From the NCBI RefSeq assembly GCF_009829945.1, contig NZ_SZZT01000002.1:1-64000 (forward strand): 64,000 nt of DNA, written 5' to 3'. The notes below the pieces were generated by a model. The model did no database searches, was not told the origin of the DNA, and saw only the letters and a list, made by a program, of their open reading frames with translations. Position numbers and translations under genes: made by a program. Of this stretch, positions 4,795-37,976 are shown one piece after another. Within the stretch, counting starts at the first letter, position 1. Every line of letters starts with the position of its first letter. The stretch comes from Pantoea sp. SoEX (GTDB lineage: Bacteria > Pseudomonadota > Gammaproteobacteria > Enterobacterales > Enterobacteriaceae).

Positions 4795-7209
4795 TTAAAC
4801 TTTAGTTTTATTATTTAATATTTTGTACAAGACATTATATGTAGATAAGGTTTTTTCTTTATTTACATTACCATTTATATATATATATTTTTGATTACGT
4901 AAAGTTGATAATATAGATCTAAAAAAACATTGATCAAAAAATTCTGGTATGTAAATATTTTTATTTGATAAAAAACTTTGAGATAATATAATACTTTCTG
5001 TCTCTATTAATTTATTATTTACGATTTGATTAATTTTAAGAATATGAAATATTATGATATAACGTTGCAACATTTCTCTAGCATTATAGGATAATAATCT
5101 CAAAATATCTGACCTATCATGTTGTAAAAATAATTTTTCTTTTTTGGAAGAAATTAATTTCTGATATTCTAGTTGATTGCAAATTTTTGTTATTAATGAT
5201 GGAATTTCACTGCATTCCCAACATAAAAACAAATCTCTTTTCACTATAGGATATAAATTTTTAACATAATTGATAAGTTCATGTATATTGATTTCTTCAA
5301 AGTTTATAATAATAGTTGCAATTAACGAGGGCATTATCAACATATGTTGAATATTATTACGGTAGTAAAGAATTGTTTTTACTTCATCTTGCAATGTGAA
5401 TATAATTTCAGTATTATCTTTTTTTTTAATTTTGAATTTATTACATTTTATAATATAAGCAATTATTTCATTAGTATTCATAGGAATTGTAATTCCAGAA
5501 GAATAAGGCACTTTATTTAATAATTCTATATAGAAATTCAATTGATCAGTAAGTTCTTTTTGAGTCAAAGAATATGTGGTAGAAGAAATAATAGCTGTAA
5601 CACATAAATTTACTGCACCAGCTACACTAGCTTCATTAATACGTGTCATAAGTTTAATAGCAAGATTATTTACTAATGGTGTTAACCATATTGGACGAGA
5701 TTTATTAATATTATTTCTTGATTTATACCATTCAGGAACATATTTATTTAAATAACTATTTAAGGTTAAAGGTTCTCCAAAATTAACATAAATATGACCA
5801 AGATTTCTTAATCTACATAATGTAAATAAATTACGTAGTTTTTGTATTATTTTATCTTTTTTTGTTTTTCCACTTAATTCATTGCTATAATAATTTATTT
5901 CTAATATATTGTCATAACCTATGTATATAGGAACTAAAGTAACTAAATTTCTACCGTTATTTTTTATAATTGATTGCAAAGTCATTGTCAATAGACCAGT
6001 TCTAGGTTTAAGTAAAAATCCAGTACGAGATCTTTGTCCTTCTATAAAATATTCTATTGAACATCCATAATTAAATAATTTATCTAAATATTTACGAAAA
6101 ATGATACAGTAAAGCTTATTGTTTTTGAATTTTCTCCTAATAAAAAAAGCTCCTAAACTACGTAGTATGCCACCTATAGGCCAAAAATTAAGATTCTGAC
6201 CTGCAGCTATATAAGGTATTGAAAATCCCTTATTGTATAACACATAAGAAATCAATAAATAATCTATATGACTACGGTGACATGGTATATAAACAATTTT
6301 ATGACCGTTTGAAACTAATTTGTATATTTTTTCGTATCCGTTAATATTAATTTTTTCATAAAATATGTTCCAAAACTGTTTCATTAAATAATCAGTCAAG
6401 TAGATAGCTTCATAAGAAATATTTGAAGCAATTTCGTTGATAATTTTTATAGCATTATTTTTAGATATTTTATAAGTAATATGTTTTTGTTTTGCTTCTT
6501 GTTTTATTATTTTTTTAAGTGTTTTAGATTTTAAAAAAACTAGTAATAAATCTTTATATTTAATAATATTAGGTCCTATTGTATTAATTTTCTGTCTTAT
6601 AAAATAAATATGTGCTATTCTCACGAGTTTTTTAATAATATTTCTGTCTGAGTTATTTTTTAGTAATATTTTGTTCAGAGAAATCATTGATGAAGAATAA
6701 ATTAAAACATTTCTACCATGCCATATAATTATAAACATCTTCTTTAAGATATTTATTACTTTCGATTTTTTCTTTTGTTTAACATCGATATTGCTATTAA
6801 AATTAGGTGACCTGCTAATCACTACTGATATAAGTAATATTTTTATCTCATGTTTATTTACTAATCTAATATAACGTCTTAGTATTTTAATTGATTTGAT
6901 TAATTTCCAATACGGAATTAAATATGAGTGCAAATATCTGTTATCATTAATAAAAAGATGACATGGTAAGGTCATGCCATTTATTTCTATAATAGATAAA
7001 GGGTCAGGTAGTTTATATTTAATACATTGTTTTCGCAAAATTAATAAATTAAGCATTGATTTATCAGGCAGGATATATATAAGAGGTGTTTTTTTATTGA
7101 TATTCTTATTGCAAATATCATCTATAGTAACTATTTTACTTCTTATTGCTATAGATACTATTATATCAACTAAATTTAAATAAATTTTATACCAGTTAAA
7201 TTTAAACAA
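4795..7209 (-). CDS. plsB: Glycerol-3-phosphate 1-O-acyltransferase PlsB
   Basis: Inner-membrane-associated acyltransferase that makes lysophosphatidate, the first step of phospholipid synthesis. The 804-residue protein has nearly the E. coli length (807). The acyltransferase blocks appear in order: the HX4D box in CHRSHIDY near residue 300, GAFFIRRKF, FIEGQRSRTG (one Gly to Gln change against EGGRSRTG) and VPIYIGYD. The large C-terminal region is kept, including YYRNNIQHMLIMPSL and the APEFF-like IPEFFDQCF near the end. Keeping the complete gene indicates the bacterium still begins its own membrane lipids. The E. coli downstream neighbours dgkA and lexA are absent, and yjbJ follows directly on the other strand. 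Confidence 0.95.
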   Translation of the reverse strand: MFKFNWYKIYLNLVDIIVSIAIRSKIVTIDDICNKNINKKTPLIYILPDKSMLNLLILRKQCIKYKLPDPLSIIEINGMTLPCHLFINDNRYLHSYLIPYWKLIKSIKILRRYIRLVNKHEIKILLISVVISRSPNFNSNIDVKQKKKSKVINILKKMFIIIWHGRNVLIYSSSMISLNKILLKNNSDRNIIKKLVRIAHIYFIRQKINTIGPNIIKYKDLLLVFLKSKTLKKIIKQEAKQKHITYKISKNNAIKIINEIASNISYEAIYLTDYLMKQFWNIFYEKININGYEKIYKLVSNGHKIVYIPCHRSHIDYLLISYVLYNKGFSIPYIAAGQNLNFWPIGGILRSLGAFFIRRKFKNNKLYCIIFRKYLDKLFNYGCSIEYFIEGQRSRTGFLLKPRTGLLTMTLQSIIKNNGRNLVTLVPIYIGYDNILEINYYSNELSGKTKKDKIIQKLRNLFTLCRLRNLGHIYVNFGEPLTLNSYLNKYVPEWYKSRNNINKSRPIWLTPLVNNLAIKLMTRINEASVAGAVNLCVTAIISSTTYSLTQKELTDQLNFYIELLNKVPYSSGITIPMNTNEIIAYIIKCNKFKIKKKDNTEIIFTLQDEVKTILYYRNNIQHMLIMPSLIATIIINFEEINIHELINYVKNLYPIVKRDLFLCWECSEIPSLITKICNQLEYQKLISSKKEKLFLQHDRSDILRLLSYNAREMLQRYIIIFHILKINQIVNNKLIETESIILSQSFLSNKNIYIPEFFDQCFFRSILSTLRNQKYIYINGNVNKEKTLSTYNVLYKILNNKTKV

Positions 7210-7914: not shown

Positions 7915-8894
7915 ATGAATAATTACTATAGGCGTTTTGCTGTAGCACCAATGCTTGGTTGGACTGATCGGCATTGCCGCTATTTTCACCGACAGTTGAG
8001 TAGTTGCGCGATTTTATATACAGAAATGATCAATACAAATGAAATCATAAACAGCAAGTATAATTTTAACATAGAATATAATGATGATAAAGAAAATTTG
8101 GTTGCACTGCAATTAAGTGGAAATAATTCAACCCAATTAGCTTATTGTTCTAAATTAGCAGAAAATTATGGTTATAATGAAATTAATCTTAATATTGGTT
8201 GTCCATCATATCGAGCGCAAAAAGGTTATTTTGGTGTAAGTTTGATGAATAATGCACATCTAGTTGCCGATAATATCAAGGCCATTCATGATGTTGTAAA
8301 TATTCCAGTAACAGTGAAAACTCGTATAGGGATAAATGAACAAGATCATTATAATTTTTTAAGGGATTTTATAGGTACTGTATCACAGTATAGTGGTTGT
8401 AAAATTTTTATTTTCCATGCAAGAAAAGCATTACTTTCCATGTATAATACTCGTAAAAATCTTACAATTCCTCCTCTTAATTATTCTCATGTATATCATC
8501 TTAAAAAAGATTTTCCTTCTTTTTTAGTAATAATTAATGGTGGTATAGAGACATTAGAAGAGGCGCAAATACACTTACAATATCTTGATGGTGTAATGTT
8601 AGGACGTGGGGTTTATAAAAATCCTTTTATTTTATCTGAAGTTGACAATAATATCTTTGGTTTAAAAAAAAAATTGATTCTGTATCATTAGTAAAAAGTA
8701 TGTATCCTTATATTGAAAAGGAAATAAAAAAACATATTAGAATTAATAGAATAATACGACATATGTTGAGTTTATTTAGAGGTGTTCCTGGTTCTAATCA
8801 GTGGCGTCGTTATATTAGCGATAATATCCATAAATCTAATGCAGGTATTTGGGTAATTGAAAATGCATTAAAAATGTTAAAATTTAATAATTAA
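7915..8894 (+). pseudogene. dusA: tRNA-dihydrouridine synthase DusA, frameshifted at a run of ten A
   Basis: DusA is an FMN enzyme that reduces U20/U20a in the tRNA D-loop. The first frame (7915-8691) gives 258 residues: FAVAPMLGWTDRH at the start, the catalytic Cys96 in NIGCPS, VKTRIG, IFHARKA, NGGIET and VMLGRGVYKNP. It stops soon after an A10 run at 8664-8673. The missing C-terminus continues in another frame to 8894 (MYPYIEKEI, LFRGVPGSNQWRRYIS, NAGIWVIENALKML). Adding one A to the run joins the two parts into a continuous protein of about 326 residues, close to the E. coli length. All motifs are intact on both sides, so this is either a young pseudogene or a gene whose frame is restored in some transcripts by polymerase slippage on the poly(A) run, a process reported for other insect symbionts. 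A sequencing error in the homopolymer is also possible. Confidence 0.85.
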
Positions 8895-37508: not shown

Positions 37509-37976
37509 TTGCCGAAATTAAGAAAAAACTTACTAAAGTTAATATCAACACAAATAGAAAATCTAGGATACAAATTAATAGGGATTGATTTTATTAAAAA
37601 CAATCGTGTATCAACTTTCCGTATTTATATTGATAATAAAAATGGTGTCAATATAGAAGATTGTGCAAATGTTAGCTATAAAATAGATACAATAATGGAA
37701 CTAGATAATTCAATTAATGTACCATATAATCTTGAAATATCATCACCAGGATTATACCGTCCTTTATTTAATTCAGAAGATTATTTGAAATTTTTAGGTA
37801 AAAAAGTAAGTTTATTATTGTATGTAGCGAATAAAAATCGTCGAAAGTGGGAGGGAGTTATCAAATCTGTAAAAGGAGATTTAATTACGGTAAATGTTGA
37901 GGGACATGATGAAGTTTTCTCTTTAAATAGTATTAAAAAAGCTAGCTTAATTCCCTACTTCCAAAATCCGGCTTGA
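37509..37976 (+). CDS. rimP: Ribosome maturation factor RimP
   Basis: Needed for 30S subunit maturation. TTG start; the 155 residues align throughout with E. coli RimP (150 aa): [30 protein letters not shown] and [12 protein letters not shown]. First gene of the large rimP-nusA-infB-rbfA-truB-rpsO-pnp cluster, in the E. coli order. The tRNA metY that precedes it in E. coli is not present. Confidence 0.95.

Follow-up and report, generated by a model that had tools for sequence, protein, structure and literature searches.

The locus described here raises the question of what becomes of a gene whose reading frame is broken at a run of a single base: in Pantoea sp. SoEX, dusA, the gene of a tRNA-dihydrouridine synthase, passes from one frame to another at a run of ten A, and the gene might be dead, wrongly assembled, or still able to give its full product. 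The SoEX genome comprises 826,838 bases in 12 contigs, the ends of which show no usable overlap and no rRNA match, and the window (by which we mean the whole stretch of 64,000 nucleotides that was analysed) is the start of contig C7, with a GC content of 23–32% per 4 kb and an average of about 27%. From its size, base composition and gene content the genome looks like that of an insect symbiont. It was compared with five further genomes of the same genus (G001 to G005); in a tree of eight concatenated proteins SoEX and G005 are sisters with a support of 100, and the branching of G001, G003 and G004 is unsettled (support 41–51). Judging from the sequences of these genomes, we hold the chance to be about even that the A10 in dusA is real and that some full-length DusA is made by way of RNA polymerase slippage.

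The frames on either side of the run (Table 1) confirm what the earlier note had claimed of the gene, that it is split exactly at the A10, that both halves keep the motifs of the family and that the joined protein has the expected length. The first part of dusA matches positions 11–258 of the NCBIfam family NF008774 (DusA) with 356.5 bits against a cut-off of 269, and the second part, in which the motifs PYIEKEI and GSNQWRRYIS are encoded, matches the adjoining positions 259–329 with 59.8 bits. In the Thermus Dus structure 3b0p, the first part covers residues 5–248 and the second residues 253–299, so that the break sits at the link between the barrel and the helical domain, both of which are said in PMC9775027 to be involved in tRNA binding in bacteria. 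With one A added DusA would have 326 amino acids, compared with 320, 323 and 327 in the intact genes of G004, G001 and G002, and the number of residues between the conserved blocks flanking the A10 is the same in intact G004 and G001. As in the known tRNA-dihydrouridine(20/20a) synthase (NF008774; structures 3b0p, 3b0u and 3b0v), both domains are encoded and the first part is above the family cut-off, but here they lie in two frames and the gene as written yields the barrel only.

Table 1. Features of the dusA locus (window coordinates) and the other frame breaks at runs of at least ten A in the SoEX genome (contig coordinates)
Feature	Position	Strand	Description	Change of frame
dusA first frame	7915..8691	+	258 aa; FMN TIM-barrel domain, then 5 off-frame codons, TAG at 8689-8691	
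A10 run	8664..8673	+	0-frame TTA AAA AAA AAA TTG	frame-change site
dusA second frame	8661..8894	+	C-terminal helical domain; stop 8892-8894	one base back
64-aa ORF from internal Met of dusA second frame	8700..8894	+	counted as part of dusA	
ispE break	C4:242780 (L041)		A10, first run	one A short
riboflavin synthase break	C4:216415 (L040)		A11	one A short
accA break	C7:148198 (L045)		A10	one A short
rluD break	C8:81164 (L047)		A10	one A short
fdhD break	C11:20409 (L051)		A10	one A short

The short ORF within the second frame was considered as a separate gene and rejected, since its start Met is internal and is found in 4 of the 4 intact relatives aligned. No other Dus was found above the Pfam cut-off in the SoEX genome, the sole further match reaching 19.1 against 20.4. 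Among the genes of the window, compared with three relatives, dusA alone is broken at an A run; two other spots that had been flagged as breaks, at 37963 and 9161, were identified by reading as an antisense ORF and an extension of a gene start, respectively.

In the history that we envisage for the gene, the dusA lineage would have built up an A run that is absent in the intact relatives and would then have lost one A, eleven being needed for the frame. If the A10 is what the cell carries and if slippage does occur, RNA polymerase would slip back on the run and add one A to some transcripts, which would restore the frame and give some amount of full-length DusA. Uncorrected messages would give the 258-aa protein, a catalytic barrel lacking the helical domain, which contributes to tRNA binding.

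Intact copies of dusA are present in G001, G002 and G004, and the long A run at the site of the SoEX break is absent from all three and from G005, where the gene is dead, with four single-base indels relative to G004 and its 3' part still there (tblastn and the corresponding slice of sequence). In G003 no match to dusA was found, despite the presence there of the neighbours csbD and dnaB. The break is thus private to SoEX. Joint inheritance of the break with G005 was rejected, as G005 is without the long A run and carries other lesions, so the closest relative lost dusA through lesions that are absent from SoEX. With a dead copy in G005 and none found in G003, the gene is dispensable in the genus. 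Nearby, plsB (window 4795-7209) is intact in SoEX and whole in G002, is split over several frames in G004 and was not found in the regions examined of G001, G003 and G005, so the locus adjoining dusA loses genes too.

Under a codon model, the dN/dS of dusA is 0.061 on the SoEX branch, with a background of 0.065 and a value of 0.167 on the branch of the dead G005 copy. A dN/dS of 1 is rejected for the SoEX branch (2dlnL 15.2), and a value of 0.10 is accepted (1.65) while 0.15 is not (4.67), which places the upper bound at about 0.14; since the dead G005 copy likewise rejects 1 (2dlnL 11.7), the test excludes only an old loss and has little power for a recent one. For the part downstream of the break alone the SoEX estimate of 0.33 is uninformative, neither 1 nor the background rate being rejected, and in a run without G005 the SoEX rate for this part lies at its upper bound, with a single rate fitting slightly worse (2dlnL 4.3). 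Conservation was also scored at the columns whose residue is shared by 90% or more of a set of 99 other DusA sequences (32 downstream of the break and 148 upstream). SoEX departs from 11 of the downstream columns, compared with 13 in G004, 13 in G001 and 15 in G002, and the identity of the downstream part is 0.64 between SoEX and G004, 0.60 between SoEX and G001, and 0.57 between G004 and G001, both of which are intact. The rate on the SoEX branch, together with downstream conservation equal to that of intact orthologues, leads us to reject an old pseudogene, as the earlier note had already argued from the surviving motifs.

A very young pseudogene is another matter, in which the A10 would be the first lesion of a gene that is being lost and no useful full-length protein would be made. 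A loss of this kind has parallels in the two relatives without a working gene, G005 with its four indels and G003 with its neighbours in place, and these, with the restriction of the frameshift to SoEX, count against rescue, as does the upstream part of the SoEX gene, which departs from the conserved columns somewhat more (43 of 148) than those of G004 (36), G001 (36) and G002 (32); the upper bound on the SoEX dN/dS (about 0.14) is moreover not far below the 0.167 obtained for the dead copy of G005. Yet only a single lesion was found, the motifs downstream of it are retained, and accA and ispE, which are unlikely to be dispensable, carry like breaks in the same genome. We regard it as unlikely that dusA is such a young pseudogene, and the reading in which slippage restores part of the message is taken up again below with the evidence from other genes.

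The SoEX genome has 22 runs of at least ten A on both strands (23 hits, one A11), 18 of them inside genes, three in first codons (nuoF, dut and an nnr-like gene) and one without sense coding. Twelve of the 18 intragenic runs are in frame, in nadB, xthA, sohB, acnA, a glyoxalase-like gene, rbfA, dapD (twice), recG, pheA, hemW and the second run of ispE (names by reading), and six are out of frame, in dusA, ispE, riboflavin synthase, accA, rluD and fdhD. The two halves of ispE, accA and rluD each match one family at adjoining positions; for fdhD the downstream part matches the family and the upstream piece of 22 residues has no hit, and for riboflavin synthase the family match is known for the downstream part only. 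Both accA and ispE are essential in Escherichia coli.

As a yardstick, the A8 and A9 runs were counted in a sample of 264 kb (the window and C4:1-200000), in which 93 A8 and 30 A9 runs in genes are in frame and one A9 is broken (1 of 124), two of the 30 in-frame A9 runs being placed by their open frame only. Standing outside this count are 14 A8 and 6 A9 runs not placed in genes, antisense runs, and one A8 supported by an ORF only. Intragenic breaks are therefore more frequent at runs of at least ten A (6/18) than at A8-A9 runs (1/124; p = 1.2e-5), the first being a genome-wide count and the second that of the 264 kb sample, within which A10 runs are broken in 1 of 6 cases. Apart from these long runs, a yciC-like membrane protein gene at C4:180578 (L245), which is diverged from its counterpart in G005, has an A9 that is one A short, and there are breaks away from A runs at C4:112476 and C4:136204. 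A non-coding A10 is found at matching places in SoEX (C4:138150) and G005 (C4:138450), next to the beginning of a gene that runs antisense.

Several of the SoEX breaks are found in the related genomes as well. The A10 of rluD is out of frame in SoEX, G005 and G003, is replaced by an in-frame A11 in G004, and the gene is in frame in G001 and G002; that of accA is out of frame in SoEX, G005 and G001 and the gene is in frame in G003 and G004; and that of fdhD is out of frame in SoEX, G005 and G001, the three genomes compared. The ispE gene is broken at its first run (A10) in SoEX and at its second run (A9) in G005 and G002, and is in frame in G001, G003 and G004, while riboflavin synthase is off frame in SoEX alone (results for G002 here and above are those among the matches listed). 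Further A10 breaks are found in nadK and a thiI-like gene of G005, in murI, ppk, hemW and a lipoprotein gene of G004, and in the 5-formyltetrahydrofolate cyclo-ligase of G001 and G003.

Purifying selection acts downstream of the common breaks, as estimated from the sequences of SoEX and G005, between which the dN/dS of the downstream part is 0.107 for rluD, 0.021 for accA and 0.072 for fdhD, each far from 1. The corresponding upstream values are 0.199 for rluD and 0.084 for accA; that for fdhD is uninformative (1.18 over 35 codons at an identity of 0.43), as are some upstream pairs with other species, for example rluD between SoEX and G003 (0.68). SoEX and G005 being sisters, it is most economical to suppose that their common ancestor already lacked one A in accA, rluD and fdhD. 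The occurrence of these breaks in G001 and G003 as well needs recurrence or reversal, as is described for erfK and ytfM in Blochmannia (PMC3017870). Very long runs also occur in frame in the genus, namely A16 in a sohB-like and a cyoA-like gene of G004 (L218 and L233) and A14 in a coaBC-like gene of G003 (L200), all named by reading.

The breaks share a direction. At runs of at least ten A, all 20 breaks found in SoEX, G001, G003, G004 and G005, at 13 distinct sites, are one A short, in a survey that for the relatives left out runs without a sense ORF and three long runs on a small G001 contig. At A8-A9 runs, which were surveyed non-systematically in the relatives, four of five breaks are one short (ispE in G005, ispE in G002, the yciC-like gene in SoEX and an A8 gene in G004), and the cyclo-ligase of G004 (L229), broken at an A9 and carrying an A10 near its start as well, is the sole break found to be one A too long. 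A gene of about 150 aa near C6:48103 of G004 (L060) is broken at an A8 in that genome only, in comparison with SoEX, G001 and G005. Such a single sign has three possible causes, a rescue that works one way, a shortening of long runs in replication, or the dropping of a base in assembly.

The last of these would apply to dusA if the run counts eleven A in the cell and one of them was lost from the assembled sequence, there and likewise at the other runs that are one short. The sign of an under-call is indeed present in 20 of the 20 breaks at runs of at least ten A, and the longest in-frame run of SoEX is A10; its single A11 is off frame, so that its assembly offers no control for long runs. Longer runs should be called worse, however, and yet all 8 of the judgeable coding A11-A16 runs in G003, G004 and G005 (five intragenic and three near a start) are in frame, an argument that reaches the SoEX assembly by analogy, as does the finding that 123 of the 124 A8-A9 runs in its own sample are in frame. 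On these grounds we think it quite improbable that dusA is broken by an assembly error. If, as we prefer, the A10 is real, then accA and ispE must be expressed across their runs, and dusA, which has a run of the same kind, would be too; the like breaks in other SoEX genes and in the sister species suggest that slippage probably repairs part of the dusA message.

A full-length product could also be reached on the ribosome. Programmed -1 frameshifting of the dnaX type takes place at A_AAA_AAA or A_AAA_AAG sites, and dusA resembles these in having a slippery A run in phase (the 0-frame codons around the run place the heptamer A_AAA_AAA in phase) and a shift of one base back, but differs from them in that it has no downstream structure, the site is not kept in the relatives (G001, G002, G004 and G005) and there is no known use for two dusA products. 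Rescue of this kind, in which tRNA-Lys would move back by one base on A_AAA_AAA so that A10 messages yield the same protein, appears very improbable to us: a backward shift does repair a gene solely where one base is missing, which is the case at all 20 breaks at runs of at least ten A, but the fold of the 87 nt past the run is unremarkable (z -0.86, matched by 36 of 200 shuffled sequences), and the cases reported for Buchnera and Blochmannia are transcriptional, with 12–50% of transcripts corrected according to a review (PMC5009743). Slippage in transcription is, by analogy, the likelier route, since it is the one reported in those genera and dusA shows no sign of a programmed ribosomal shift. 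The rescue by slippage that the earlier note had suggested for dusA is in this way supported by comparison of genomes: five other SoEX genes are broken at A10 or A11 with the same sign, and for accA, rluD and fdhD the break recurs in sister species and is followed by sequence under purifying selection. What counts against it from the literature is that a survey of Buchnera transcripts (PMC5574713) reports no frame-restoring transcription error.

For Buchnera and Blochmannia, genes with frameshifts in poly(A) tracts have been described that transcriptional slippage rescues (Tamas et al. 2008; Wernegreen et al. 2010, as cited in PMC3017870, PMC4389277 and PMC5009743). The kind is already known, since B. 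vafer has eight poly(A)-frameshifted genes with the essential dnaX, dnaG and pth among them (PMC3017870), and dusA by itself is one more gene on that list. The likeness extends to a single indel in a long A run of an otherwise intact gene in an AT-rich, reduced genome, to frameshifts common to several species (here accA, rluD and fdhD) with essential genes included, and to their number, as 4–8 frameshifted genes per Blochmannia genome are given in PMC4389277, compared with six at runs of at least ten A in SoEX. The present case differs in lying in another genus, in being described at the level of DNA, in that the dusA break occurs in one species, and in that the breaks at runs of at least ten A are all of one sign. 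By analogy, then, dusA would seem to match the "impaired and rescued" poly(A) state of Buchnera and Blochmannia, in a further genus and within a whole set of genes.

The single sign may itself be informative. In Buchnera transcripts homopolymers hold 151 of 157 insertions and 16 of 57 deletions (15 of 70 deletions elsewhere in the same source), and the frequency of single-base insertions grows exponentially as runs get longer (PMC5574713); slippage in A runs there mostly adds a base, which fits breaks that are one short, the class that an addition mends. Among the titles and abstract openings searched, which did not cover Tamas et al. 2008 and Wernegreen et al. 2010, we found none on a sign bias of poly(A) frameshifts, and we make no claim that such a bias is new to the literature. 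Automatic annotation may label genes of this kind as pseudogenes or truncated. Taken together, the wider set offers a natural test, with related genomes, 13 break sites at runs of at least ten A, several of them in genes expected to be essential, and all one short. We tentatively suggest, with the chances somewhat against us, that the genus lives with a corrector that works one way: slippage that mostly adds bases would let one-short runs, those in essential genes among them, persist between species while one-long runs are purged, so that A10 frameshifts would accumulate in one direction, and an error habit of the polymerase would be part of how accA, ispE, murI, nadK and dusA are read.
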